Source: Bacteroidota bacterium | GTDB lineage: Bacteria > Bacteroidota > Bacteroidia > Cytophagales > Cyclobacteriaceae | DNA: 64,000 nucleotides | NCBI GenBank assembly: GCA_013285945.1 | Contig: JABDGP010000007.1 | Span: 1 to 64,000 of the forward strand | Direction: 5' to 3' | Shown here: positions 21,863-42,883 of the stretch, one piece after another | Layout: each line of letters starts with the position of its first letter | Position numbering within the stretch: the first letter of the stretch is position 1 | Program-made: the position numbers and the translations under genes | The notes under the pieces: model-generated | Database searches by the model: none | Seen by the model: only the letters and a program-made list of their open reading frames with translations | Told to the model about the DNA's origin: nothing

Positions 21863-23128
21863 TCATTTTGTCGGTTTATTCACCTTACTGTCATCGGTAT
21901 GAGTGAAAAATAAAAAGGAGTTAAAGAAAGCAAAAAAAACAATCCCACTCCTTCGCTCCAATAATGATTCCGTTATACATGAGAGAATAAAGAGCACGAC
22001 AAAAATAAGGTAAAGGCTGTTTCTTTCTTTAAATGCCAGCTTAATTGAAAAATAAAAGTTCGTTAAAAAAATGATAAGCCCAACACATCCAAATTCAATT
22101 ACAGTCTCTAAAAACTGATTATGTGCATTAAATCTTGTGCTATCAGAGTAAGTCAGTGGCGTGTATTCATTTTCGATATAACAATCCTGAAGTTCATCCT
22201 GAGTATCTCCTGTTCCAACTCCTATAACAGGGTGAGCCATGAAAAGTTTGAATGCACAATCCCATATTAATAATCGCATTTGTCGCTCCCCCCACCTCTT
22301 ACCTGCATCAAACTCGTCTCCATAATTAAACGCTTCCCTAAACCGTTCCCGATTGACCGGGAACAACATTACAATGCCAATAAAAAGAACTCCGAGAGCC
22401 GTAGCAGCAGCCATTGATCGCCAAATGCCAAACTTTTGATTAATTTTAAATGCGAAGTATCCAACACCTCCAAGGATAACTAAGACTATATGAGTTCTTC
22501 CTGCAAGAAGAAATACCGAGACAATCAAAAGTGCCAGAGAGCAATAATACAAAACCGAATTTCTTATGATCAATTGACTTAGCCCTTCAAAACGAAAATT
22601 CGCGAGGATGGCAAGTGAGAAGCAAAAATACATAGCAAGATAAGCCGCGTGCATTCCTGCGATTCCACTCAGTTTATGATAGAAATAGAAAGAGGAGTCG
22701 CCCCGCAGCAAATAGTGATACGTAGCAATTGTGAGGCACGTCAACGCTGTCAACAAGCAACTAATAACAAAAACAATCAGGATAATATTAACCTTAGTCT
22801 TGTCTGGTTTAGCTGAATAATAGAGCATAATCGGGAAAATCAATAAACTCACTTTTTTCTCAAGGTCAAAAAATGCCTGGTGCCAATTATCGGTTCTAAC
22901 CATTCCCAAAAGATTCATTAGGAAGACTGAAATAAATAAGACCATCATACCGCTAAAACGTGATTTCCCTTCACGCTTTGAGATGATTAGGTACCAAACC
23001 CAGTTAATTCCAAGTAAGATTATTATAAAATTATTTAACTGCACATCGCCAAAAGAAAATGGCATTGTAAATACAAAACATAATATCAATACATAATGTA
23101 TTTTACTTGCAAAAGAGGTTTGATTCAT
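21863..23128 (-). CDS. O-antigen ligase/polymerase-family membrane protein
   Basis: Multi-TM; 'MAHPVIGVGTGDTQDELQDCY...STRFNAHNQFLETVIEFGCVGLIIFL' (Wzy_C-like). Confidence 0.87.
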   Translation of the reverse strand: MNQTSFASKIHYVLILCFVFTMPFSFGDVQLNNFIIILLGINWVWYLIISKREGKSRFSGMMVLFISVFLMNLLGMVRTDNWHQAFFDLEKKVSLLIFPIMLYYSAKPDKTKVNIILIVFVISCLLTALTCLTIATYHYLLRGDSSFYFYHKLSGIAGMHAAYLAMYFCFSLAILANFRFEGLSQLIIRNSVLYYCSLALLIVSVFLLAGRTHIVLVILGGVGYFAFKINQKFGIWRSMAAATALGVLFIGIVMLFPVNRERFREAFNYGDEFDAGKRWGERQMRLLIWDCAFKLFMAHPVIGVGTGDTQDELQDCYIENEYTPLTYSDSTRFNAHNQFLETVIEFGCVGLIIFLTNFYFSIKLAFKERNSLYLIFVVLFILSCITESLLERRSGIVFFAFFNSFLFFTHTDDSKVNKPTK

Positions 23129-23166: not shown

Positions 23167-24618
23167 TTAAAAAGCCTTGTTTACAAAAAAATTAACTGTA
23201 TCTGTTTCACGTCTTAATCTTTCAAAATGTAATTTATCAAATATTGGATTAAATATGTTTATTGAAGTCATGGTTGGATACAATTCGCTGTAGTCGCCGT
23301 CCGGAAAGTAAAGGCAAACAAAGTTCTCAAACGATTCCTTCGTTTTATCAGGCTCATTTTTTAATAACCTGTATCCATGATCACTGGTTAGAATTATGAA
23401 TGATTTGGGGTTATATCTCAAAATTGTATCAATTGATTTCTCCAAGAGCTTATTCGTATATTTTAGCTGGTCCAAATAAGGCTCACTTCGGCTAAAGCTT
23501 GGGTTTGTCGATGGCCTCAGTGCCCCAGTACTATCGTAAATATAGGGATGGTGGGGAAGCAAAAGATGACAATAAACAATCTTCGGTCGGTCTTGCTTTT
23601 CCTTAGATATCCGCTCTAGTTCATTCAATACACTTAAATGATCCATATAAGTATACCTGTAAATGATTCTCATAGGAAGAGTCTTTGATAACAGGTAATT
23701 ATTAAAATTCGGATAGAGAAATCGATCAAAATAGAAAGGCTTCGTATTTAAAATGTCAAAAATTGAAAGATTATATATATCATAACCCTTTAGATAAAAC
23801 TCCTGAAAAACTCTACTATTCTTGATCTTACTAATTATTTTTTTTTGAGTTTCAATATACCGGTTAGTTGAATTTAAATTTAAATCCTCTGTTAAAAACT
23901 CATTGTTTAGCATGGAAGCCATGCTGCTCCCAGTATTATTGTAATTACTTCGGGAATGTGGAATGTAATAAAAGCCCTTTTCCTTAAGAGCATTTATAAA
24001 CTTATTATTGTTGTAGTTCCAGTATTTTTTCAGATTGTCGGCATTTGCATATGCATCCGTTACTATAAAATAAACGTCTGGTCGCCCCTGCCCACTTACG
24101 CGGCTCTTATCAAGGTACTCCATTAAAGCCCTTCCTTCACTCACTCTGCCTACGGTCACTGTTAGAATAACCACCTCCATCGCCAGATACACTAAGAGTA
24201 AAACGTTAAGGTAGAGGTTTAAGGTCTTAAGCCCTCGTTTGGTAGTAAATAGAAACAGCGCGATTCCGGCAATGAAAAAGACTATCAATAATATAAAATA
24301 ACCCTCTTTTAAAAAGTTCTTAATAAAGGCCGAGGAAGAAGTAAAAAGGAAAAATAAATGGGCATAGAACAAAGTTGTCAACATTACTGTGGTTGTAAAA
24401 ATCGCTGACGGTATGCTTTTATTTGTAATGCTGGTTAATAGCAACTTTAACGAAACGGGAAGGGTGAGCAAAACAACAAATGGAATCAGAGTCTCATCGA
24501 ACTCCATTTCGCCATTCAATTCATTTATATTATAAAAAAGAAAAAATATCCCGCAAACACTGTAATGGAATGATCGGTCTCTGGCCAGCTCAAAGAGCGA
24601 GTCCCATCTTTTACTCAT
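23167..24618 (-). CDS. Membrane-anchored sulfatase/alkaline-phosphatase-superfamily protein
   Basis: N-terminal TM segments, 'RPDVYFIVTDAYANADNLKKYW', 'HLLLPHHPYIYD', 'FIILTSDHGYR'. Confidence 0.78.
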   Translation of the reverse strand: MSKRWDSLFELARDRSFHYSVCGIFFLFYNINELNGEMEFDETLIPFVVLLTLPVSLKLLLTSITNKSIPSAIFTTTVMLTTLFYAHLFFLFTSSSAFIKNFLKEGYFILLIVFFIAGIALFLFTTKRGLKTLNLYLNVLLLVYLAMEVVILTVTVGRVSEGRALMEYLDKSRVSGQGRPDVYFIVTDAYANADNLKKYWNYNNNKFINALKEKGFYYIPHSRSNYNNTGSSMASMLNNEFLTEDLNLNSTNRYIETQKKIISKIKNSRVFQEFYLKGYDIYNLSIFDILNTKPFYFDRFLYPNFNNYLLSKTLPMRIIYRYTYMDHLSVLNELERISKEKQDRPKIVYCHLLLPHHPYIYDSTGALRPSTNPSFSRSEPYLDQLKYTNKLLEKSIDTILRYNPKSFIILTSDHGYRLLKNEPDKTKESFENFVCLYFPDGDYSELYPTMTSINIFNPIFDKLHFERLRRETDTVNFFVNKAF

Positions 24619-25979
24619 TTTGTAAACAGATAAATAAGCCTTTCCGAATTTGTCATTTCAACTTTTTTGATCAGTTTAAAGTGACGGCTAAACTCCAGTT
24701 CAAAATTATCCCTGGTATAATCATCGTAAATGTCTTCTTTGCTCTGAAGGAGCGTTTGAACCATTGGATCAGATTTTGGGACAAATTCAATTATAAGGTT
24801 ACTCGTGACGGATGCAAAATGAATAGCAATTTTGTAAAAAGGGATATTATAAAAAATAACCAAATGATGTATCAAAGCCAACGCAAGAACAGTGTCCACC
24901 TCAATCCTTTCAAAAAAAGACTGTCGCTCAGAATTTGCCCATCCAAATGAAGGCGTTGGATTTATTGCATCAATTACTAAAGGCAGAATAGAAGTCAATC
25001 CTTCCCTTTTACACATCAAATAATTTCTTTCAACGGAAACCTGGTCGCTGTCAGTTGCTATCACTTCAAATCCCAAGCCTCCCAAATGCCTGCTTATCGT
25101 TCCGTCGTTTGCTCCAAAATCTAAAATCTTCTTTGCATTGTGTATAAGTAAAAGGTCACTTACGGTTTTTATCTTGAAATGCAAATAAGCATCGGATACA
25201 TCCTCTTTATAATATAAAGACCAATTAGAAACAGCATTCCATTCGATCTTAAGTACCTGACTAAGCAGGTCTTCAGTCAGACGCTTAATGTAGTCGGCAT
25301 TAAATGATTTGTAGGTTGCGTGATGCCCCTTACTTTTGTATTTGATCTTGGATCTCGTATGTAGAACAATATGAAGCAAAACTCCCAGGGAAACCTTGTT
25401 CCTTCTCTTCAATAATTTGTTGACAAGTTCAAGAGGGATGCCATCGATGAAGGCATTAAAAAGTGCTGATAAGCCAGCATCTACTTTTGAGATCAAAAGC
25501 AATGGACCGAAGAAATGCTCACAAAACTGCCGATAGGCCATCCAAGGCTCCCCTTCAATGTAAAATCGAAATGACAGCGTGTCTATCAGAACAGCCCTCC
25601 CTTTATAAAATTGAATATTATAAGCGCTGCAGTCTTTAAGTATCATTTTATACTTAATAGCAATTTGTTGTATTTTGAGAGTTGCTATAGCAGCATCCTT
25701 CAGCTGGCTAAATGTCCATTCGCTTGGGTACGAGATCGTGACAACAGAGGGTTTGATCGCTTTGTAGAAATCGCTTTTCAATTCGCTTTTGATTTCTTCA
25801 CCAATTTCCTGATGATCAATTATTAAATTACTGCTTCTTAAATCATGGAAAAGTCCTGATGACATTAAGTGATCATATTCTTTAACATAATTATTTTTAA
25901 TCACTCTGACAATAGCGCCTTTAAATTCGATAACTGATCCGTTTGGATCTTTGAAAGAGCTTTTGTGAATTTTCATCAC
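24615..25979 (-). CDS. Kinase-like N-terminal region fused to class I SAM-dependent methyltransferase (NoeA-like)
   Basis: C-terminal SAM motif 'KILDFGANDGTISRHLGGLGFEVIATDSD'; N-terminal 'LKDCSAYNIQFYKGRAVLIDTLSF' resembles the D-x4-N ... D catalytic loop of APH/LPS-kinase folds. Confidence 0.72.
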   Translation of the reverse strand: MMKIHKSSFKDPNGSVIEFKGAIVRVIKNNYVKEYDHLMSSGLFHDLRSSNLIIDHQEIGEEIKSELKSDFYKAIKPSVVTISYPSEWTFSQLKDAAIATLKIQQIAIKYKMILKDCSAYNIQFYKGRAVLIDTLSFRFYIEGEPWMAYRQFCEHFFGPLLLISKVDAGLSALFNAFIDGIPLELVNKLLKRRNKVSLGVLLHIVLHTRSKIKYKSKGHHATYKSFNADYIKRLTEDLLSQVLKIEWNAVSNWSLYYKEDVSDAYLHFKIKTVSDLLLIHNAKKILDFGANDGTISRHLGGLGFEVIATDSDQVSVERNYLMCKREGLTSILPLVIDAINPTPSFGWANSERQSFFERIEVDTVLALALIHHLVIFYNIPFYKIAIHFASVTSNLIIEFVPKSDPMVQTLLQSKEDIYDDYTRDNFELEFSRHFKLIKKVEMTNSERLIYLFTK

Positions 25980-26138
25980 CTAATTCTCTTCTTTATGCTT
26001 CTTGTTGAATATCCGTAGAATAAAGAATTTTATTTTCTTTATATATACCAGGATACCAAGAACGGAGGCTAGGATTACTTGAAAAATTATGCTGCCACTC
26101 GCCGGATCTATATAAACTATTATATTAAGAGATTTCAT
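25980..26138 (-). CDS. Small (52-aa) single-TM protein MKSLNIIVYIDPASGSIIFQVILASVLGILVYIKKIKFFILRIFNKKHKEEN
   Basis: Translated by hand from the minus strand: ATG at 26138, TAG at 25980-25982, directly abutting the next gene's start (GTG at 25979); Y-[IL]-D-P-x-[ST]-G-S motif plus TM helix; below the 60-aa cutoff of the ORF track. Confidence 0.85.
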   Translation of the reverse strand: MKSLNIIVYIDPASGSIIFQVILASVLGILVYIKKIKFFILRIFNKKHKEEN

Positions 26139-26171
26139 GTCCACATAAGTTTTCGGTTGTAAAAATTAACT

Positions 26172-27149
26172 CTATTTAATAAGTTTAGGATGATATAATT
26201 TCATCCACCTTATTGTTTCGTCGATACCCTGCTCAAGGCTATAAGGCGGTTTACCTAAAACGTCAAACGACGGTTGCATAGGGGCCATATTACTTGTAGT
26301 CATACTTTTATACCTCGAAGTTGTAATCGGAAATTTAAGTCCAATCAGCGTCAGTGCATCTCCAACCAGACCCAGGGTTCTCACAACAATTCTAGGAACT
26401 ACTTTCACTTTTTTTCCAGTTTGTTGAATTGAAAACCCATTTACCCAGTTATAAATATCAGTTGGCATATCTCCTACGTAAAAAACTTTTCCATTAATTT
26501 TTTCTGGCAAAGTATTTAAAATAGAAATAATCTGAAACACAACGTTTCCAACGTAACCATATGAACGGATAACCGGCTGATGACCAGGATGGAAATACAG
26601 TCCCTTACTCACAACTCTCCAAAATTCGTATGGATACCTCAAATGCCAGGGGCCCCAGATATTGGTTGGCCGAATGATAGTCCAAATGCAGGATAAGCCA
26701 ACCGCTCTCGTCATTTGTTCCATTATGACTTTGCTTTCCCCATACACCGTGTGCGGAGCATAGTCTTCATCATCTTTAGGGAATCCATGGTACTGATTTA
26801 CAAACTGAGTTGAAGTAATGATTGCTCTTTTGATATATGGTCTCTGCTTAATTGCATCTAAAATATTTCGAGATCCTTCAGTGTTTACTTTATAATCATC
26901 AAGCAAATTACGCGCATCAGTGTCAGTTCGGGCAGCCAAATGAATTACCACTTCCGGCTTAAATAATTCAAATTTCTCGGTAACCTGATTGATATCCAAT
27001 ATGTCACATTTTTCCCAAAGCCGACTATGATCGCTAACATTTGGTTTTGATATATCCAGATTTAAAACCGTATGCTCCTCCATTAGGGCCAATTTTTCAA
27101 TCAAATTGGTGCCAATAAAACCCGATCCTCCCGTAATTAATATCCGCAT
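26172..27149 (-). CDS. NAD(P)-dependent sugar epimerase/dehydratase
   Basis: MRILITGGSGFIGTNLIEKL, VIHLAARTD, TVYGESKVIMEQ, RPTNIWGPWH. Confidence 0.88.
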   Translation of the reverse strand: MRILITGGSGFIGTNLIEKLALMEEHTVLNLDISKPNVSDHSRLWEKCDILDINQVTEKFELFKPEVVIHLAARTDTDARNLLDDYKVNTEGSRNILDAIKQRPYIKRAIITSTQFVNQYHGFPKDDEDYAPHTVYGESKVIMEQMTRAVGLSCIWTIIRPTNIWGPWHLRYPYEFWRVVSKGLYFHPGHQPVIRSYGYVGNVVFQIISILNTLPEKINGKVFYVGDMPTDIYNWVNGFSIQQTGKKVKVVPRIVVRTLGLVGDALTLIGLKFPITTSRYKSMTTSNMAPMQPSFDVLGKPPYSLEQGIDETIRWMKLYHPKLIK

Positions 27150-31665: not shown

Positions 31666-33114
31666 CTAGTTTCTATTCTTTATTTTAATCAAACTAAATA
31701 TTTTCTCCTTCTCCTTTTTAGTTAATACTGAAGACAAAAAGAGGCTCAACAATGTTACCATACTTAATGGAATGACTTTTAGGAAATTTGAGAAATCAAA
31801 GAAGTTAAGTATGACCACTGTGAAAGTGAGAATCAAAGTAATTTTTAGAAGCCCCCAAAGATTAAGGTACACAAAATCGATCATTCCCCTCTGCCTAATC
31901 AGTAAGCAGATAAATATAAATGCATAAGAACCCAGTGAAGAATATATCGCGCCATAAACCGAATAGTAAGGAATCAAAAAAATAGCAAATAGAAATGAAA
32001 GCGAAATACCAACGGAGTATATTATTCCCAAGTATAGAGTCTTACCGTCTTTTAAAAAACGCTGCTCAAATACGATAATAATGATTCGCAAGAGCGGAAA
32101 AAAGATGAGTAGGGGAATATAGTCGCCTGCAACAAGGTACTTTTCGGAGGCTACGATTTGAATGATATCGTATCTTAACATAAAAATAAATGGCACAATA
32201 AATATGATAGCTAAGATGGAATATTTAAGCATTATGTTATAAAATAACGCAGGCTTATCACCATCAGTTTGTTCTTCAAAAAAATAGGGAGAAAGTGTAG
32301 CGGTAATGGTGGAGATAAACATAAAAACAATCTCCATCAGCGTGTATGCTACAGAAAATATAGCCACATATTTTGCCCCATCATAAATATTAAGCTGAGT
32401 TCTTACAATTAATGGGATTCCCCACACACCGGCGAAATAGGGCAATAAAGGAATACAATATTTAAAGAGTCTGCCAAATGCATCTTTATCAACTTTGAAT
32501 GGAAATAATAAATTCCATTCTTTCCATGGAAAAGCTATTAAAAGAATTATGCACATACAGAGATTAAATACTACTAACACTTGAAGCAGAGTCAGCTTCA
32601 AAAAAAAAGAAAAAAAAACTGAAATGATTACCCATAAGGAGCCACGAAGAAATTGAAGAAAATTCTGAAAGTTGTTTTTCCCCAATCCATAATGATAAAA
32701 AAGAAATAAGGTCATTACTGCTGTTGTGGCAGTACCCGTTATTGTAAGGACAAGTTCCCTTTTAAACAAACTGAGATTTAACCATTTAGAAATCGAATTG
32801 TTAAATAGGATGATGGTAATTATGAAGACAAGGCTAATCAAAATGGTTACAGTCAATGATGCCCAAAATGCGCTGCTGGTTCTCTCTATACCTTCATTTA
32901 CACTTTTAAATAAGAATTGGTAAGTACCAAGTGTAAACACGTACATCAAAAAAGCTGAGAATGTAAGAAGCAGGGAAAGAGCACCAAACTCCTCCATTGA
33001 AAGATTTTTGGAGAAAAAGTAAACCCTGAGAAATCCAATAAAAAATGTGGAAAAGCTTAAAAAGGCAGAGATAAGTGTTTGAGCAAATAATCTCTTAAAA
33101 GGAATTGGGCTCAA
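31666..33114 (-). CDS. Wzx/MATE-like polysaccharide flippase
   Basis: Multi-TM; 'FFIGFLRVYFFSKNLSMEEFGALSLLLTF' N-terminus and about 12-14 hydrophobic segments. Confidence 0.88.
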   Translation of the reverse strand: MSPIPFKRLFAQTLISAFLSFSTFFIGFLRVYFFSKNLSMEEFGALSLLLTFSAFLMYVFTLGTYQFLFKSVNEGIERTSSAFWASLTVTILISLVFIITIILFNNSISKWLNLSLFKRELVLTITGTATTAVMTLFLFYHYGLGKNNFQNFLQFLRGSLWVIISVFFSFFLKLTLLQVLVVFNLCMCIILLIAFPWKEWNLLFPFKVDKDAFGRLFKYCIPLLPYFAGVWGIPLIVRTQLNIYDGAKYVAIFSVAYTLMEIVFMFISTITATLSPYFFEEQTDGDKPALFYNIMLKYSILAIIFIVPFIFMLRYDIIQIVASEKYLVAGDYIPLLIFFPLLRIIIIVFEQRFLKDGKTLYLGIIYSVGISLSFLFAIFLIPYYSVYGAIYSSLGSYAFIFICLLIRQRGMIDFVYLNLWGLLKITLILTFTVVILNFFDFSNFLKVIPLSMVTLLSLFLSSVLTKKEKEKIFSLIKIKNRN

Positions 33115-34189: not shown

Positions 34190-35230
34190 TCAAGTCCGGG
34201 ATCTAGTTAATGCAATTGTACTTAATCCAAGTGAATTGCTAACATTTGGACGATTCTTAATACAAAAACAAATCAAATTATACTTATTCATTTCATTTCC
34301 TAATGAGGCAACCAAAGCAAGGGCTTGTTCTGACAGAGCTATATTAGAAGTGCTTATTAGTAAAGAAAAATCAAAATTACCAGCATTAATCTTTAAGGTC
34401 CACTCATATTTTCCCTGCCATAAAACTACCACTTCCAGATCTTTTACATTTTTGTTTACAAGTCCTGAAAAATTAAGTGTGTCATAACTATCACCAGCCA
34501 ATACTACTAGAGCCTCATCGTGTACAAAAATAACATTTTCCTTTCTTGAGATTTTTAATGCATCTGCTTTTTGATCAAACCCGCGATAAAAATACGGCAA
34601 GTGTTCATCGGAATTACTCGAAATCGCGGGGAGTGGGGTGAATTCAAGCCTTCTCTTTACTTCCCTATTAGGTGACCCCACCTGAATACTATATGGGGAT
34701 ACATCTTTCGTAATCACAGTGTTTGCTCCAATCACTGCACCCCTCCCTATATACACACCTTGTTTGATAAATACACCATATCCAATCCAGCAGTCCTCTT
34801 CGACTCGGATTGGTTTTGAATGCTCTTTTCTTCCACTTTCTGAACTAAGAATCAAGGCGTCCTGATCTTTAATAAGCAATGAGGGGTAAGACTGGGCATA
34901 ATGATTTCCGGAACTAGCAAATATGTTAGCCGAAAACAAGCAGTGTCGCTCTATCACTACATCTCCCAAGAGTTTACATCCGTCATTTAAGGTTGAGTTA
35001 TCTTTGATGAGGATATGATTGTTTTCCCAAACATGTAATTCGCAGTTCCTTCCAACCCCGGCATTGTCTCCAATCCTGATTGATTGATTAGCCTTCGCTG
35101 TTCCTTCGGAAGAAAAAATGATCCGAGAGAATGCACCTATGCCCGACCCTTTTCCAATATGAAATTGGAATATGTTATTAATGTAAACACACTTTAAAAG
35201 CAGTTTTATTAAGTGCTTTACCTTGCTCAT
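34190..35230 (-). CDS. Hexapeptide acyltransferase with extra C-terminal domain
   Basis: LbH repeats and 'VIGANTVITKDVSPYSIQVGSPNREVKRR' followed by ~140 aa with no recognised family. Confidence 0.8.
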   Translation of the reverse strand: MSKVKHLIKLLLKCVYINNIFQFHIGKGSGIGAFSRIIFSSEGTAKANQSIRIGDNAGVGRNCELHVWENNHILIKDNSTLNDGCKLLGDVVIERHCLFSANIFASSGNHYAQSYPSLLIKDQDALILSSESGRKEHSKPIRVEEDCWIGYGVFIKQGVYIGRGAVIGANTVITKDVSPYSIQVGSPNREVKRRLEFTPLPAISSNSDEHLPYFYRGFDQKADALKISRKENVIFVHDEALVVLAGDSYDTLNFSGLVNKNVKDLEVVVLWQGKYEWTLKINAGNFDFSLLISTSNIALSEQALALVASLGNEMNKYNLICFCIKNRPNVSNSLGLSTIALTRSRT

Positions 35231-36294
35231 GAAAGATTCAAAAAATCAAAACCCAAAGGGGAGCCACGTTTTATATCAGACCGAGCTCTTTTACCAAGCG
35301 CCATATCATAATACTTGGGGGGTAATCCATCACCTGGACGAATTATTCGAATGTTGTCCTTTGTCAGCAACTCTCCTGCTCTGATATCTTTGACTATATA
35401 TATTGACCTCTTGAACATCTTACTTTTTTCTTCGGCTTTTTGAACATCGAGTTGCACCTTTCCCATTGCCAGATAGGCTCTTTCACTTTCAATTACCAAT
35501 TGTTTCATTTCCTCGGGCTCCATACTAAATGTACTATCTACTCCGCCATCTGCTCTTCTGATGGTAAAATGCTTTTCAATTACTCTGGCACCTAATGCCA
35601 CTGATGCAATGCTTGCTCCAACTCCCATCGTATGGTCGCTCAAGCCAATGATGCAATCACGAAATATCTGTTGGAGAACCGGTATGGTTACTAGGTTTGT
35701 ATTTTCGGGAGTAGACGGGTATGTACTCGTACACTTGAGCAGTACGATCTTATTACATCCATTTTCTTTAAGAACCTGAACCGATTCGATGATATCCGCC
35801 AGATTAGCAATTCCAGTGCTCATAATTACTGGCTTGCCTGTCTGCGCTACTTTTTTGAGAAGATGATGGTCAGTATTCTCAAATGAAGCAATTTTATAGC
35901 ACGGAACATTTAAGGTCTCCAGAAAATCGACAGCTGTTTCATCAAACGGAGTACTAAAGCAAATTAGCCCAAGTTCGAGGGCATAATCGAATAACGGTTT
36001 ATGCCATTCCCACGGCGTGTGAGCCTCCTGATAAAGCTCATATAAGTTCCGTCCGTACCATAGAGATTTCTTATCTGTTATATCAAATAACCCACCGGTG
36101 TGGTTTATAGTCATGGTGTCGGCCGTATAGGTTTGTAATTTTACGGCATGTGCTCCGGTAGTTGCGGCAATTTTTAATATTTCCATAGCTCTATCTAATG
36201 AGCGATTGTGATTTCCGCTCATCTCGGCTATGATAAAAGGCTGGTGATCTGCCCCGATTAACCTGTCAGCAATTTTTATTTCAACTCCGTTCAT
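35227..36294 (-). CDS. pseI: Pseudaminic acid synthase (NeuB family with SAF domain)
   Basis: FIIAEMSGNHNRSLDRAMEI, AVKLQTYTADTMTI, WYGRNLYELYQEAHTPWEWH, GLICFSTPFDETAVDFLE, C-terminal SAF. Confidence 0.95.
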   Translation of the reverse strand: MNGVEIKIADRLIGADHQPFIIAEMSGNHNRSLDRAMEILKIAATTGAHAVKLQTYTADTMTINHTGGLFDITDKKSLWYGRNLYELYQEAHTPWEWHKPLFDYALELGLICFSTPFDETAVDFLETLNVPCYKIASFENTDHHLLKKVAQTGKPVIMSTGIANLADIIESVQVLKENGCNKIVLLKCTSTYPSTPENTNLVTIPVLQQIFRDCIIGLSDHTMGVGASIASVALGARVIEKHFTIRRADGGVDSTFSMEPEEMKQLVIESERAYLAMGKVQLDVQKAEEKSKMFKRSIYIVKDIRAGELLTKDNIRIIRPGDGLPPKYYDMALGKRARSDIKRGSPLGFDFLNLS

Positions 36295-37733
36295 ATTTTT
36301 TTATATTCATATCGATACGAATTAGGATAATCGATCGTCTCCATTTGTGCGAACCCCAGGTTCAAAAATATTTTTTTTGAACCCTCATTTTCTTTTTTTA
36401 CATAGCCAACTACTGCGATAGAACTATCGCGTTGTTGATAAAACAGTTCGATTGCTTTCTGCAAGACAAGTTCACCCCAACCTCGCCCTCGGTAATTTTT
36501 ATCTAAGGAATAACTTATCGTCGCGTACTCATTTACATCAAAACGAACCTGTGCAAATAAGATATTTTTAAAGGCAAATATAAAAAGAAGATCGGAGGAG
36601 TCAGATATCTTCTTCATAAACCAAGAAGTATGTTCTTCAAGTTCAATAGGCCTTGAATTGTATGATTGCCTTCGCAGATCTGGTTCATTAGTCCATTCAA
36701 ACAGCATCAATAGATCGTCAGGAACTGCTCGTCTAACCTTGCAGTTAAGTTCAAAGTCTAATCGATTAAAAATTTTTAAAATCCGCTGGTCTGAATTTCC
36801 ATCAAATATCCTCAGTCGATTTTGGGTTGCCGATTGTACTTTTTCGGGCTCAACTCGAAAATTTTCAAGTTTAAAAGCTAGGTTGTTCTGTATTAAGAAT
36901 GAAAAAAAATGGCTTTGATTTTCGGCTGTTTGCCTGAGATACAATTCTCCACCAACACTTAGATATTCGTAGGCAATCCCGCTGGCAGAACAAATAGCAA
37001 CTCCCGTCTTTTTCATGATTCCGGCAAGCGAAGAGGATTCGAGATTGCTTAGTATCTCTATTTTAAATGACGATTCATCAACTACATCAACTATATTTTG
37101 AAGGGACTGCCGATGTGCAAAGGCTTCTCCAAGAACAATATAACAAGTGTTAAAAGAAAAATTCAGTCCTATCTTTAGGGCTGAAAGTGTATGGTTTTCG
37201 GGATCGGCTCCCCCCATACAGATCAACAAATTAGTTTCCCGGTTGTTAATCGGTGCCTCTTTTGAGGCTTCTCGAAATGGTTTTTTGAGCATCGCAAACG
37301 CTGGGCCAAAAAAAGTCTTTGTATAGGGCTCTTTTGAATATTCAGAAAGGCTAACATCACCGGCAGGATTAATCAAAACATCTGAAACGAAGTGATAAGA
37401 ATGTATATCGTCAATACACACTAATTTACACCCATGTTCTTTTACCTCTTGTTGATAGGCAGTGTTGAAATTATAACCATCAAGAACAACTATTTCATGT
37501 CCGGTAAGCTGACGTTTAAGTTCATCTAAATCGTTGTTTCCTTCAACATCAATAATTTGATGCCCACTGGCATGAATGAGTTTACTTATGCCGGGTAAGG
37601 GTGATCGAATCAGATATATACACGTGAAATGCCGGGATAAAATTTCGCCTAATGCCAGTAAGCGGTGAATGTGGCCGAGGCCAATCCTGCTATTCCCGTC
37701 TGCTCTTAAAAAGACCTTTGTTTTCGCAACCAA
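36291..37733 (-). CDS. pseG: PseG-type UDP-sugar hydrolase (residues ~1-325) fused to GNAT acetyltransferase (residues ~331-480)
   Basis: RADGNSRIGLGHIHRLLAL, LLICMGGADPENHT, AICSASGIAYEYL; C-terminal GNAT 'CKVRRAVPDDLLMLFEWTNEPDLRRQS...SLDKNYRGRGWGELVLQKAIEL'. Confidence 0.92.
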   Translation of the reverse strand: MVAKTKVFLRADGNSRIGLGHIHRLLALGEILSRHFTCIYLIRSPLPGISKLIHASGHQIIDVEGNNDLDELKRQLTGHEIVVLDGYNFNTAYQQEVKEHGCKLVCIDDIHSYHFVSDVLINPAGDVSLSEYSKEPYTKTFFGPAFAMLKKPFREASKEAPINNRETNLLICMGGADPENHTLSALKIGLNFSFNTCYIVLGEAFAHRQSLQNIVDVVDESSFKIEILSNLESSSLAGIMKKTGVAICSASGIAYEYLSVGGELYLRQTAENQSHFFSFLIQNNLAFKLENFRVEPEKVQSATQNRLRIFDGNSDQRILKIFNRLDFELNCKVRRAVPDDLLMLFEWTNEPDLRRQSYNSRPIELEEHTSWFMKKISDSSDLLFIFAFKNILFAQVRFDVNEYATISYSLDKNYRGRGWGELVLQKAIELFYQQRDSSIAVVGYVKKENEGSKKIFLNLGFAQMETIDYPNSYRYEYKKI

Positions 37734-37734
37734 T

Positions 37735-39024
37735 TTACCGTATTTTAAACAAGGGCTTTAATGGTTCACATAGTAGAAATTTTTTGAGGTCATTACTCTC
37801 AAAAGCATTGACTACTTTTTCAAAGTAACCGCGATAACTTTTTAATAAACTCTCAACGTCTTTCTCGCTATGGGCATAATTGATATTATGAGTACCAATC
37901 ATAAAAATTCCATTGGCAAACATTTCCTGCAGAAGGAGGGTTTTTAACTCCCAGGAATTAAACTGCTCATTATCTTTAATAATAAAAAACGACCAGACCG
38001 GATAACCCGAAACGCTAAATACGTGGCCGAGTTTATATTCAGCAATAAGTTGATTCAAGCTCTTCATGATTTCTTCTCCCGTCTTAAAAAGTTTGGCAAC
38101 AACAGGCTCTCGTTGAAGCTTATTGAGTGTAGCGTAAGAAGCTGCCAGAGATAAAGTCTCGCCACCGAAAGTAAATGAGAAGAAAATCTCTTCCATTAAT
38201 TTCATGATTTCTGCGCTACCTGCTACGGCTGACACGGGATACCCATTAGCTAACCCTTTGCCAAAAGTCGCCAAGTCGGGTGTTACGCCGAAAAACTCTT
38301 GTGCTCCTCCATTAGCATACCGAAAGCCGGTAATGGTCTCATCAAAAATCAAAACGGCTCCATGCAGCTGAGTCAACTCTTTTACTTTTTGCAAAAATCC
38401 ATTCTCGGGAGCAGTTGTATTTACGGGTTCTAAAATAACTGCAGCAACCTTTCCTTTTAACTCATTTAATTTTGATTCCAACGAGGCAATGTCATTATAG
38501 AAGAATTTATGTGTAAGGTCTTTAACTGCCTTAGGGACACCAGAATCACGAGTAGTAGACCCGATATACCAATCCTGCCATCCGTGATATCCGCAAACTA
38601 AAACATGATCACGTTTGGTGTAAGCCCTAGCTAACCTGATTGCGCCTGATGTTGCATCAGACCCATTCTTACCAAAGCGCACCATTTCAGCGCAGGGCAC
38701 CATCTCCACGATTTTCTCGGCCACTTTAAATTCCAATTCGTGAGAAAGAGAATAGATGGTTCCATTCTGGAGTTGTTCAGTAACAGCCTTAGTAACATCG
38801 GGATCATTATATCCCAACGTGATGGAGGCTAGGCTGTTTACAAAATCAACGTATTGATTTCCATCTACATCCCAGATATACGCACCTTGCCCTCGTTCTA
38901 CAAAGAAAGGAGAAACCCCTATCGGTAATTGAGTTTTACTCTTACTAAATGTTTGAGAACCTAAAGGGATGGTCTTTAAAGCTCGGGCCAAATAGTCTTC
39001 GGATTTTTTATAACGTTTACTCAT
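37735..39024 (-). CDS. Class-III PLP aminotransferase (glutamate-1-semialdehyde aminomutase-like)
   Basis: FVDFVNSLASITLGYNDP, RFGKNGSDATSGAIRLARAYT, LIFDETITGFRYANGG, PDLATFGKGLANGYPVSAV. Confidence 0.92.
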   Translation of the reverse strand: MSKRYKKSEDYLARALKTIPLGSQTFSKSKTQLPIGVSPFFVERGQGAYIWDVDGNQYVDFVNSLASITLGYNDPDVTKAVTEQLQNGTIYSLSHELEFKVAEKIVEMVPCAEMVRFGKNGSDATSGAIRLARAYTKRDHVLVCGYHGWQDWYIGSTTRDSGVPKAVKDLTHKFFYNDIASLESKLNELKGKVAAVILEPVNTTAPENGFLQKVKELTQLHGAVLIFDETITGFRYANGGAQEFFGVTPDLATFGKGLANGYPVSAVAGSAEIMKLMEEIFFSFTFGGETLSLAASYATLNKLQREPVVAKLFKTGEEIMKSLNQLIAEYKLGHVFSVSGYPVWSFFIIKDNEQFNSWELKTLLLQEMFANGIFMIGTHNINYAHSEKDVESLLKSYRGYFEKVVNAFESNDLKKFLLCEPLKPLFKIR

Positions 39025-39806
39025 TTATCTTCCTTTTTAATTGATTTACTATATCCTTCATTTCTAGTGATCGAACTGTTGATTGATTTTATTTCGCGGT
39101 TTCCTTCGAGATAATTTGCATAATCAAGCCAGGTTTTGTCTGATCCAATCGCTGACACAAGGTTACTAATCAGTACAAAATCATCAGGTTCATCAACAGT
39201 AAGTCTTAAATGGCCGCATAAATATCCTTCTTCAAAATTATCTGAAATAAATTCGGTACCTCCTTTAAAGGTTGAGTTTTTCCAAATATAAGGAGTCACA
39301 TGTTCGCGCTCTGAAGTAAGTCGGGCTTCTTTCCATGCTTTTTCTAATGCCGCGTATCGAAATACTTCAACATCTTCTCCATCAGGATAGGTCGGAGATA
39401 ATGTATTTGAACAATAATCCAGGTTGTGATCAATTGTGAATTGAATTATTTTATCAATAAGTTCTGCATCAATCAGGGGGCAGTCTGATGTTAATCTAAC
39501 CACGTAATCGGGGTTCTTGTCGTTCAAAGATTGATAAAATCGATCGAGTACATCATCTACAGATCCGCGATAAGAATTTTGATTTAGCTTCTTTGCGATT
39601 TCTGTTATTACTTTGTCCTCTTCTTTTTCAGTGGTAGCAATTATCAAGTCATCAATCATTTTTGATTTGAGAATTCTCCGAATATGCAATTCGAGAAGTG
39701 TCGTTCCATTGATCTCTTTTAAAACTTTCCCTGGCAATCGTGTTGATCCAGTACGGGCTTGTGTAATTGCTATGATTTTCATCAAGTATTTATTTAGCAA
39801 TTTCAA
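39021..39806 (-). CDS. SpsF/PseF-type cytidylyltransferase (candidate CMP-nonulosonate synthetase)
   Basis: IIAITQARTGSTRLPGKVLKEINGTTLLELHIRRI, RGSVDDVLDRFYQ, VVRLTSDCPLIDAELID. Confidence 0.88.
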   Translation of the reverse strand: MKLLNKYLMKIIAITQARTGSTRLPGKVLKEINGTTLLELHIRRILKSKMIDDLIIATTEKEEDKVITEIAKKLNQNSYRGSVDDVLDRFYQSLNDKNPDYVVRLTSDCPLIDAELIDKIIQFTIDHNLDYCSNTLSPTYPDGEDVEVFRYAALEKAWKEARLTSEREHVTPYIWKNSTFKGGTEFISDNFEEGYLCGHLRLTVDEPDDFVLISNLVSAIGSDKTWLDYANYLEGNREIKSINSSITRNEGYSKSIKKEDK

Positions 39807-40950
39807 GAATTGATTTAATTACATAATCCTGTTCCTCTTCCGTTAAGGTTGGATACATGGGCAGGCTAAGGCACTGTTCGTAATAGTTTTCAGCCTGAGG
39901 AAAGTCACCTTTTTTATTTCCCAGAGACTGATAATAGGGCATGGTATGAACAGGGGCATAGTGAATTTGAGCATAAATGCTATTTTTTCGAAGCTCATCA
40001 TACACAGCCTTTCGATTACTCACCAACACGATGTATAAATGATATGCATGCTTTCCCGATGCGGGGGGCTTCAAGCTTCTGACACCCGCGTTCTTGAATG
40101 CTTTATCGTATTTACTTGCAATTTCCCATCTTTTTGAAAGTCCCTCATTGGCTCTTCTTAGTTGCGATATCCCCAATGCACATTGCATGTCGGTTAAACG
40201 ATAGTTATACCCCAAGTCAATCATTTCATAGTACCATCCTCCATGATTTTCTTTCATCAAATGCGAATCTCGGGTAATACCATGGGTGCGCAACAACAAA
40301 AGTTTTTCGTACAGGCCTTTATTATTAGTCGTTACCATTCCTCCTTCACCACAGGCAATGTGTTTAACCGGATGAAACGAGAAAATTGATAAATCGGCAT
40401 AAACACCATTACCACACATTTGCTTTTGGCCATGGCTATTCATAAAAAAACCTCCGGGAGCATGGCAAGCATCTTCGATAATCCAAAGACCGTGTTCGTC
40501 GGCTAAGTTTTTGAAAGGCTCAAGATTGACAGGATACCCTGCAAAGTCTACCGGTATAATTCCTTGATAAGTTCCCTTGGGCGATGATTCCAAAAGGTGC
40601 TTGACCTTTTTAAAGTCAAGAAGAATTGTTTCAGGATCAACATCGCTGAACACCACCTCTCCGCCGCAATACCGAATACAGTTTGCTGAAGCAGCAAACG
40701 TGATTGGCGTAGTAATAATTTTGGAGCTTTTGTTGACCTCCAAAGCCAGTGCGGCCAAATGAAGTGCCGCTGTCCCGTTTGCTACAGCTACAGCATATTT
40801 AGCCCCTACATAGCTGGCAAATTTTTGTTCAAACTCGTTGACCCTGGGGCCTTGAGTCAAATACTCAGAGGTAAGAGACTCAGTAACTGCGAGGATATCT
40901 TCGGGTGTAATATTTTGTTTGCCGTAAGGAATTATTTTCATCCCATCCAT
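39790..40950 (-). CDS. pseC: UDP-4-amino-4,6-dideoxy-N-acetyl-altrosamine transaminase
   Basis: IIPYGKQNITPEDILAVTESLTSEYLTQGPRVNEFEQKFASYVGAKYAVAVANGTAALHLA; FSFHPVKHIACGEGGM. Confidence 0.95.
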   Translation of the reverse strand: MDGMKIIPYGKQNITPEDILAVTESLTSEYLTQGPRVNEFEQKFASYVGAKYAVAVANGTAALHLAALALEVNKSSKIITTPITFAASANCIRYCGGEVVFSDVDPETILLDFKKVKHLLESSPKGTYQGIIPVDFAGYPVNLEPFKNLADEHGLWIIEDACHAPGGFFMNSHGQKQMCGNGVYADLSIFSFHPVKHIACGEGGMVTTNNKGLYEKLLLLRTHGITRDSHLMKENHGGWYYEMIDLGYNYRLTDMQCALGISQLRRANEGLSKRWEIASKYDKAFKNAGVRSLKPPASGKHAYHLYIVLVSNRKAVYDELRKNSIYAQIHYAPVHTMPYYQSLGNKKGDFPQAENYYEQCLSLPMYPTLTEEEQDYVIKSILEIAK

Positions 40951-40994
40951 TGATTATGTTATTTCAATTATTACAAAAGTATTAAGTGCCGATT

Positions 40995-41876
40995 TCACAG
41001 TTTCCAATTTGAAGGATTGAGCAGTGAAGTATTTTCGACTTGCAGTTTGCTTAATCTTTCCATCGCGTCTTCCGGAAAAACGGGAAGAATTGAGTCTATA
41101 TTTTGATCCAATTGCAGCTCAGTTTCTACTCCAATGAGTACATAGTCAATGTGGTTTTCACCAAGGGCAAAATTCAGGCAAGCCTGCATCACGCTAAGAT
41201 TATAGTCTGTTCTTATCTGATGAAAGTTGTGTAGTGGGTTTCTCAACTCCGTTAAATTTCCTAAAAGATCTTCGGGGTTTTTAAAAAAGAGGCCTTGCAA
41301 GAAAATTGAGCGCACGTGTATTTCTTTACCCTTCTGCTTTGCCCGTTTGAGCAAGTCTCTTTTTTGAGAGGATGCATCAAATGGATTATAAGGAATCTGA
41401 ATCACCGAAATCGTCTCATCATCGATAGCCTTCATAAACTCCTGAAGATGATAAACAGACAATCCGATTTGTTCAATTTTATTATTCTTTTTCAAATCAA
41501 TCAATTCCTTATGATTCCTTCCTGATACATAATCTAAATATCTATGATACATGTAAACATATAATCTATCAATAGCAAGCCCCTCCAGTGTCTTTTGAAC
41601 CTTTTGGGTCAGAGGGGTATCATCGTGGATAAATTTGCTTATTACTTTTTTAAACTGATTCTGTTTATTCTCTTTATGATAGCGTCCTATTATTTCTAAA
41701 GAATCTCCGTAGGCGTCCGCCGAATCTAAGATTTCAATGTTATAACTCCGTGCTTTTCCAAGAATCTTAAAAGCCTCCATTTGATCAGGCTTTCCCAAAC
41801 TATTATTGATTCCGTAAGGGAGACCCAACTGTACGGTTCCCAGAATCAATTTCCTGCTGCTTTGGACTGAGTTCAA
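40995..41876 (-). CDS. Aldo/keto reductase-family protein
   Basis: KLILGTVQLGLPYGINN, EILDSADAYGDSLEIIG, IGLSVYHLQEF. Confidence 0.87.
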   Translation of the reverse strand: MNSVQSSRKLILGTVQLGLPYGINNSLGKPDQMEAFKILGKARSYNIEILDSADAYGDSLEIIGRYHKENKQNQFKKVISKFIHDDTPLTQKVQKTLEGLAIDRLYVYMYHRYLDYVSGRNHKELIDLKKNNKIEQIGLSVYHLQEFMKAIDDETISVIQIPYNPFDASSQKRDLLKRAKQKGKEIHVRSIFLQGLFFKNPEDLLGNLTELRNPLHNFHQIRTDYNLSVMQACLNFALGENHIDYVLIGVETELQLDQNIDSILPVFPEDAMERLSKLQVENTSLLNPSNWKL

Positions 41877-42883
41877 GCTTCAAAATTTGAATCGACAAAT
41901 TTTTTTATTAATTGCCGCAAACTATCAACCGTTTCCCATTGAGCATTGCTACCTGAATCATAACTAAACCCCGCCGGAACATTTACACCCTTAAAATGAT
42001 TTTTGTATTCCTTTATGTCAAAAATTGGTTGTTGTGGCAAGATGCAATAGTATTTTCCAAGGTCAATTGTATTAATGGAGTCAGAAGCGGTAATCATTTC
42101 TTCATGTAGTTTTTCTCCTGGCCTCATTCCCACCAACTCCTGTCTGCATTCTGGCCCAATTGCCGTTGCAACGTCTACGATTTTATAGGATGGAATTTTA
42201 GGTACAAAAATTTCGCCCCCCCAGGCATTTTCGATAGCATTGAAAACCATTTCACATCCATCTTCCAGTGAAATATTAAAACGAGTCATGCGATTGTCGG
42301 TGATAGGAAGTACCCCTTCTTTTCTCTTCTTTAAAAAAAATGGCATTACAGAGCCATTAGATCCCATCACATTTCCATAGCGAACGACCGAGAAAGTGAT
42401 GTCTCTTTTTCCCCTAATATTATTCGCAGCGATAAACAACTTATCTGACGCCAATTTAGTAGCACCATAAAGATTAATCGGAGCAGCAGCCTTATCTGTA
42501 GATAGTGCCACAACTTTTTTTATTCCACATTTAAGAGCAGCGTTAATAACATTTTCAGCGCCAAGTATATTTGTTTTAACACATTCCATAGGGTTATATT
42601 CTGCCAAATGAACGTGCTTCATCGCCGCAGCGTGTATGACAATGTCTATTCCTTCAAATGCGCTTATTAATCTGCTTTCTTCTCTTACATCGCCAATGAA
42701 ATAACGGATGGCTGGATATTTATCTTCGGGGTATTCAATGGCCATTTGATAATGTTTTTGCTCATCTCTGGATAGGATGACAAGTCGTTTTACCTCAGGA
42801 AATCTTTTAAAAATTAATTTGGTAAACATCTTACCAAAAGAACCGGTACCTCCGGTTATCAATACACTTTTATTGTTAAGCAT
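41873..42883 (-). CDS. pseB: UDP-N-acetylglucosamine 4,6-dehydratase (inverting)
   Basis: SVLITGGTGSFGKMFTK, SRDEQKHYQMA, AAAMKHVHLAEYNPMECVKTNILGAENV, STDKAAAPINLYGATKLASD, RYGNVMGSNGSV. Confidence 0.97.
   Translation of the reverse strand: MLNNKSVLITGGTGSFGKMFTKLIFKRFPEVKRLVILSRDEQKHYQMAIEYPEDKYPAIRYFIGDVREESRLISAFEGIDIVIHAAAMKHVHLAEYNPMECVKTNILGAENVINAALKCGIKKVVALSTDKAAAPINLYGATKLASDKLFIAANNIRGKRDITFSVVRYGNVMGSNGSVMPFFLKKRKEGVLPITDNRMTRFNISLEDGCEMVFNAIENAWGGEIFVPKIPSYKIVDVATAIGPECRQELVGMRPGEKLHEEMITASDSINTIDLGKYYCILPQQPIFDIKEYKNHFKGVNVPAGFSYDSGSNAQWETVDSLRQLIKKFVDSNFEA

Follow-up and report, generated by a model that had tools for sequence, protein, structure and literature searches.

The window, that is, the whole 64,000-nt stretch of Bacteroidota DNA analyzed here, contains a polysaccharide locus with an intergenic gap of 192 nt (25980–26171). 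A sequence-only reading had placed in this gap an ORF for a 52-residue membrane protein and had regarded the product as a small subunit or adaptor of a glycan-modifying complex. The question raised by the locus is whether this ORF is a genuine gene and, if so, with which partner its product works. The features concerned are listed in Table 1.

Table 1. Features of the window that bear on the microprotein gene
Feature	Position	Strand	Remarks
Wzy_C-type O-antigen ligase/polymerase	21863–23128	−	Downstream; host locus context
NoeB-like multi-TM enzyme, alkaline phosphatase superfamily	23167–24618	−	Asp188, Thr229, His351, His356 and Asp413 conserved; Pfam Sulfatase match
NoeA-family kinase-methyltransferase	24615–25979	−	Kinase-like Arg24, Asp115, Asn120 and Asp132; SAM-binding G288-x-N290-x-G292
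Microprotein gene, 52 aa	25980–26138	−	Stop codon included; assigned from sequence, conservation and coding constraint in the family
Parts of the microprotein			Short N-terminal tail; motif YIDPASGS (residues 9–16); TM helix with invariant Gln20; basic C-terminal tail
NAD-dependent epimerase/dehydratase family gene (SDR-type)	26172–27149	−	Upstream and codirectional, at 33 nt from where the microprotein gene starts; host locus, outside the conserved unit
Wzx-like flippase (Polysacc_synt)	31666–33114	−	Wzx/Wzy-type locus context

Translation of the ORF gave exactly MKSLNIIVYIDPASGSIIFQVILASVLGILVYIKKIKFFILRIFNKKHKEEN followed by a stop, which is the peptide of the sequence-only reading, and the length of the gap was also confirmed. 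The TAG stop codon (25982–25980) is followed by GTG (25979) and ATG (25976) of the kinase-methyltransferase gene, so that the two genes abut, as had been claimed, if GTG is the start, and lie 3 nt apart if ATG is used. An in-frame GTG at 26144 is an alternative start of the microprotein gene, adding two residues. The gene belongs to a minus-strand run consisting of the SDR-type dehydratase, the microprotein, the methyltransferase, the sulfatase-like gene, and the Wzy_C protein. A 52-codon ORF in AT-rich DNA carries little weight by itself. Conservation is what raises this one above chance, since its homologues keep the same downstream gene, the family extends over more than 20 phyla, and codon comparison of family pairs with unsaturated dS gave dN/dS values of 0.08–0.57, indicating purifying selection. 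The segment is a real, conserved gene that was skipped by annotators. Elsewhere in the window (35227–42883), genes resembling the pseudaminic/legionaminic acid pathway were noticed (a NeuB-like synthase, a DegT aminotransferase, a cytidylyltransferase, and a dehydratase); these assignments, made by eye except for the DegT match, suggest a nonulosonic acid in the polysaccharide of the window.

The homologues share the pattern Y-[IL]-D-P-G-[ST]-G-S-xxx-Q, one TM helix, and a basic tail, which bears out the earlier proposal that membrane microproteins marked by Y[IL]DPx[ST]GS are conserved. Among 73 members, Tyr1 and Gln12 were present in 73, Asp3 and Gly7 in 72, and Ser8 in 71. The scan demanded a motif-like pattern, which in part fixed the values for Asp and Gly beforehand; the first position could also have been F, W, H, or L, and Ser8 and Gln12 were free. 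At least 18 residues, the length of a signal peptide, precede the motif in 53 of the 73, and 50 of these 53 have small residues at −3 and −1 (AxA-like); the remaining members start 1–15 residues ahead of the motif with an almost uncharged segment. Lys and Arg averaged 0.01 in the motif plus TM helix and 6.0 in the following 24 residues, a distribution that, by the positive-inside rule, points to a motif outside and a tail inside. Most members thus appear to have a signal peptide ending in AxA directly before the Tyr, so the motif was rightly placed ahead of a TM helix, with the correction that it would usually be the mature N-terminus outside the cytoplasmic membrane. An amphipathic tail lying on the membrane surface was also considered and was dropped, as the amphipathicity of the cytoplasmic segment barely exceeded that of shuffled sequences (mean z 0.34).

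The window peptide had no match above the curated cut-off in Pfam/NCBIfam, and 74 homologues searched against the same collections gave single chance matches and no family; hits to UPF0697 (E 0.016) and DUF5400 were set aside as below cut-off or isolated. The microprotein profile found no credible match in the PDB, and a text search for the motif in 5.39 million papers returned a single, unrelated chromoprotein paper. Neither a family model nor a paper naming the microprotein was found. The family appears to be unnamed; its neighbors NoeA and NoeB are already known. A single family member used as query against plasmids and phages found nothing, yet plasmids of Sinorhizobium meliloti carry the gene; short queries evidently overlook divergent members, and profiles are needed.

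The downstream neighbor does have the methyltransferase domain from which the sequence-only reading had named it, and a kinase-like domain had been missed. Its N-terminal domain has the kinase-like Asp, Asn, and DFG-type Asp, with an Asp–Asn spacing of 5 as in protein kinases and an Arg in place of the ATP-binding Lys, while the C-terminal domain is a class I SAM methyltransferase (weak match to Methyltransf_23, with methyltransferase structures also matching by fold). The four kinase-like residues and the GxNxG SAM site were invariant in 59 aligned sequences. The same catalytic residues, again with Arg replacing the usual Lys, are described for the kinase-methyltransferase Lani_1194 family (PMC9758233), and rhizobial plasmid homologues are annotated NoeA; from its sequence, the protein is assigned to the NoeA (Lani_1194) family. 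The solved structure nearest to NoeA was WbdD, both by sequence profile (E 1.6e-4) and by fold search, in alignments that span only about 210 columns, most other listed fold matches being methyltransferases. The predicted NoeA model (pLDDT 93.8) consists of two soluble domains and no TM domain. NoeA probably phosphorylates and methylates surface sugars, the likely substrates being glycans that are linked to a lipid or associated with the membrane.

For the next gene, the label "sulfatase-like" needed correction: the protein shows a conserved Thr and an EptA-like fold rather than a sulfatase Cys motif. A formylglycine sulfatase was rejected since the CxPxR Cys/Ser motif was not seen in the sequence, in which the nearly invariant Thr229 is found instead. 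The predicted model consists of TM helices and an outer domain, and its fold search ranked EptA first, with EptA/EptC and sulfatases as the nearest structures; NoeB is likewise assigned an alkaline-phosphatase fold in the Legionella pan-kinome paper (PMC9758233). Several loci carry more than one NoeB-like gene, either flanking NoeA in the order microprotein–NoeB–NoeA–NoeB (L046:8960–13645) or in tandem (L112, L130, and L138). Rhizobial NoeB proteins (L140:6378–8039, L209:4878–6551) start ...AFQGVYIDPRSDAGYAV followed by a hydrophobic stretch, a faint likeness to the motif that may be due to chance.

The linkage of microprotein and NoeA was followed from both sides. A first search in relatives gave four clear homologues with the same methyltransferase directly after each, and a profile of these four matched in 13 of 398 genomes of the window's phylum, the window's own genome included. 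The methyltransferase adjoined the microprotein at all 15 clean loci besides the window, the four from relatives being among them. For the reciprocal test, 85,462 species genomes were scanned with a NoeA alignment that did not contain the microprotein, built from NoeA genes first reached via the microprotein. The best 80 of the 572 NoeA loci were examined; they over-represent the subfamily near the window, to which the figures apply, and by their record titles represent over 20 phyla, among them CPR groups, Chloroflexota, Bacillota, Acidobacteriota, Planctomycetota, Cyanobacteria, and one archaeal MAG. The motif scan found the microprotein upstream of NoeA at 68 of these 80, and five more had the variant motifs YLDASTGS, YVDWGSAS, YIDAGTGS (twice), and YINPGTGS. 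Two loci had no upstream DNA, leaving 78 testable, and genome search with gene-order mapping recovered the last five, with the microprotein (m), NoeA (A), and NoeB (B) in the orders m-B-A (L102, L126), A-B-m (L118), and A-m (L136) or on divergent strands (L121). The microprotein was therefore present at 78 of 78 loci with enough flank among the best 80 of 572, and both genes occurred in 51 of 51 searched genomes. One of the MAGs with the system (L114) is labeled Rickettsia typhi, a label that is probably wrong.

Across the 398 genomes, both genes occurred in 13, a NoeA-like gene alone in one, the microprotein alone in one, and neither in 383 (Fisher p 2e-22), a count that ignores a methyltransferase-only fragment match (G204) and a marginal match in a long frame (G404). 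In the NoeA-only case, a distantly related kinase-methyltransferase gene stands beside the permease and ATPase genes of an ABC polysaccharide exporter (L183:5443–6867), a WbdD-like setting. The microprotein-only case (L184:5953–6189) is a YIGPGLGTG variant between an arylsulfotransferase (PF14269) and a sulfotransferase (PF13469), which may mark a wider class. In a second phylum (121 genomes), NoeA accompanied 15 of 20 microprotein loci; the other five comprised a locus with both genes broken (L203), one with a NoeB-like neighbor and no NoeA detected (L205), and three with MYIDP[NG][ST]GG beside a PF01663-type phosphodiesterase. At the broken locus (L203:509–1712), NoeA is fragmented and the adjacent microprotein is cut after YLDPGSGSYY, an apparent joint decay. 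Plasmid-borne NoeA members with the microprotein were found in Novosphingobium (divergent, 35% identity), Gemmatirosa, Singulisphaera, Deltaproteobacteria, and Rhizobium, and the pair also occurs at loci outside obvious polysaccharide clusters. Gene order varies, and so does the strand (m-A, m-B-A, A-B-m, A-m, and divergent), and none of the loci examined had the microprotein fused to NoeA or NoeB. NoeB adjoins NoeA at 74 loci and is missing at at least 15 that have room for it, where the microprotein motif is unchanged. Recurrence beside both neighbors, as proposed, was thus seen, with the qualification that the two are not equal partners: the microprotein and NoeA are nearly inseparable, while NoeB is optional.

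Microprotein relatives without NoeA were found in two settings besides the arylsulfotransferase locus. At L143 and L144 the microprotein stands beside a NoeB-like gene, and YIDP[NG][ST]GG microproteins stand beside PF01663 phosphodiesterases in Chloroflexota, where the MYIDP[NG][ST]GG ORF lies directly upstream of the PF01663-type gene (L146:5774–5947, L147:6058–6243, L202, L204, and L206). The head motif varies with the partner, being YIDPG[ST]GS with NoeA/NoeB, YIDP[NG][ST]GG with PF01663, and YIGPGLGTG with the arylsulfotransferase.

The system is not confined to surface-glycan clusters, the setting named in the sequence-only reading, and is also found in the nodL–noeA–noeB nodulation operon. 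In S. meliloti, nodL and noeA are separated by an unnamed 71-aa ORF (MPIIMSVVGFLILSIVPAHAYLDPGTGSMLVQ...) that overlaps the start of noeA; the gene at this place is annotated "hypothetical protein" (MPIIMSVVGFLILSIVPAHAYLDPGTGSMLVQGLIG...) and is present in strain 1021 too. The operon was named as nodL, noeA, and noeB, with no microprotein (Ardourel et al., 1995, as cited in PMC9758233 and PMC10945364). In the Legionella paper, conserved neighbors of Lani_1194/NoeA are Lani_1193 in 65% and the NoeB-like Lani_1195 in 38% of 816 neighborhoods, and the main text is silent on the nature of Lani_1193 and treats it as a likely effector (PMC9758233). Judging by its position, Lani_1193 may be the same microprotein gene.

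On balance, it seems probable that the microprotein is an obligate single-pass transmembrane subunit or adaptor of the NoeA-type kinase-methyltransferase. The small-subunit part of the earlier proposal would thereby stand, and the enzyme and its chemistry were less well judged. The N-terminus with YIDPG[ST]GS would lie outside the cytoplasmic membrane, one helix with the invariant Gln would span it, and the short basic segment in the cytoplasm would dock soluble NoeA at the membrane. There, a lipid-linked glycan would be phosphorylated and then methylated, as by WbdD, the substrate here being a Wzx/Wzy-type polysaccharide and, in rhizobia, probably the Nod factor. As the NoeA model is soluble and its likely substrates are lipid-linked or membrane-associated, a small subunit for membrane docking is the simplest reading. 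Against it, plain anchoring leaves unexplained why the outer motif is the best-conserved part, relatives without NoeA exist as described above, no fusion with NoeA was found among the loci examined, and the cytoplasmic segment is barely more amphipathic than shuffled sequences. The high conservation of the outer head calls for a second contact, and the weakest step of the proposal is that this near-invariant motif may touch an extracytoplasmic partner, for instance NoeB at loci that have it or the lipid-linked glycan once flipped to the far side, a contact that would couple the cytoplasmic modification to an outer step.

Alternatively, the microprotein might first of all serve enzymes of the alkaline-phosphatase superfamily (NoeB, PF01663 phosphodiesterases) as a subunit or activator, its outer YIDPGxG[SG] head binding their outer catalytic domain and NoeA being a frequent third component. 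The pairs of microprotein with NoeB or PF01663 in the absence of NoeA, and a well-conserved outer motif that changes with the enzyme, fit this reading; the loci that lack NoeB with their motif intact, and a genome-level link that is to NoeA in 51 of 51 cases, do not, and we regard it as rather unlikely. In a further reading, that of a DltX-like covalent carrier, the invariant Tyr or the Thr/Ser of the motif would transiently bear a group and hand it to an outer enzyme such as NoeB. The general design resembles that of DltX (PMC12148441), and the Tyr, found in 73 of 73 members, lies at or near the mature N-terminus, but the conserved unit has no MBOAT-like membrane transferase, the NoeA model has no TM domain, and the motif is N-terminal rather than C-terminal as in DltX. 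Since the motif is predicted outside and the NoeA kinase would be on the wrong side of the membrane, we give the carrier a slim chance. A wider version takes the YIDPGTGS microproteins in general as relays across the membrane, in which every variant of the head pairs with its own extracytoplasmic glycan- or lipid-modifying enzyme and, in the NoeA/NoeB version, the invariant outer Tyr or Thr carries or presents the transferred group as in DltX; this is likewise improbable.

Two further readings were weighed. The Wzx- and Wzy-like genes of the window locus would suit a microprotein that regulates Wzx/Wzy export or some other envelope protein and merely shares a transcript with noeA, yet the constant neighbor is NoeA and not a flippase or polymerase, which also holds for the nod operon and for loci that lie in no obvious polysaccharide cluster and makes this very unlikely. 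An ORF that acts only through its translation, as a leader peptide or by coupling, to control the translation of NoeA, and whose product has no role as a protein, would fit a stop codon that touches or comes close to the NoeA start (median of 16 nt to the NoeA SFRDP codon). This reading was rejected as scarcely credible, given that order and strand vary: the microprotein also occurs downstream of NoeA, parted from it by an intervening NoeB, or on the opposite strand, and its protein sequence is conserved across phyla under purifying selection, with signal peptides common.

If the microprotein is an obligate subunit of NoeA, experiments in which NoeA was expressed or deleted on its own may have left out part of the system, and one member of the nodL–noeA–noeB operon has gone unnoticed. 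Both NoeA and NoeB have been on record as determinants of Medicago host range since 1995, and we found no assigned reaction for either in the literature. The pairing in more than 20 phyla would then define a widespread phosphorylation–methylation step acting on glycans of the cell surface and would be a clear example of an enzyme dependent on a microprotein. From its place beside NoeA, the microprotein is probably a missing subunit of that enzyme, also in the nodulation operon of the alfalfa symbiont.

Among known systems, the nod operon shares with the window a NoeA-family kinase-methyltransferase (37% identical to the L061 relative), a NoeB of alkaline-phosphatase fold, and the intervening microprotein ORF, but it is a host-range nodulation operon on a symbiotic plasmid, whereas the window holds a polysaccharide locus. 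WbdD, the chain terminator of the O9a O-antigen, likewise joins a kinase to a methyltransferase; it phosphorylates and then methylates the terminal sugar of the lipid-linked O-antigen, and it brings WbdA to the membrane by means of its C-terminal region (PMC3482155). It belongs to a different family, with the order methyltransferase–kinase–coiled coil and an ABC-transporter pathway, whereas NoeA has the kinase before the methyltransferase and the window is of the Wzx/Wzy type. Like the EptA-type phosphoethanolamine transferases, its top fold match, NoeB is predicted to have an N-terminal membrane domain and an outer alkaline-phosphatase-type domain; its conserved Thr may correspond to the EptA nucleophile, and it shares with EptA only 14% identity in the structural alignment. 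DltX is a membrane microprotein with an invariant extracellular Tyr motif that carries D-Ala between its partners, an MBOAT protein and an SGNH protein, and it shows that microproteins of this sort can act as catalytic carriers (PMC12148441). Both microproteins combine an invariant Tyr, extracellular in DltX and predicted to be so here, with an operon of envelope-polymer modifying enzymes, but their motifs show no likeness: DltX has a C-terminal FxYxxF motif and MBOAT/SGNH partners, while the microprotein described here has an N-terminal YIDPG[ST]GS motif and a conserved unit built around NoeA.
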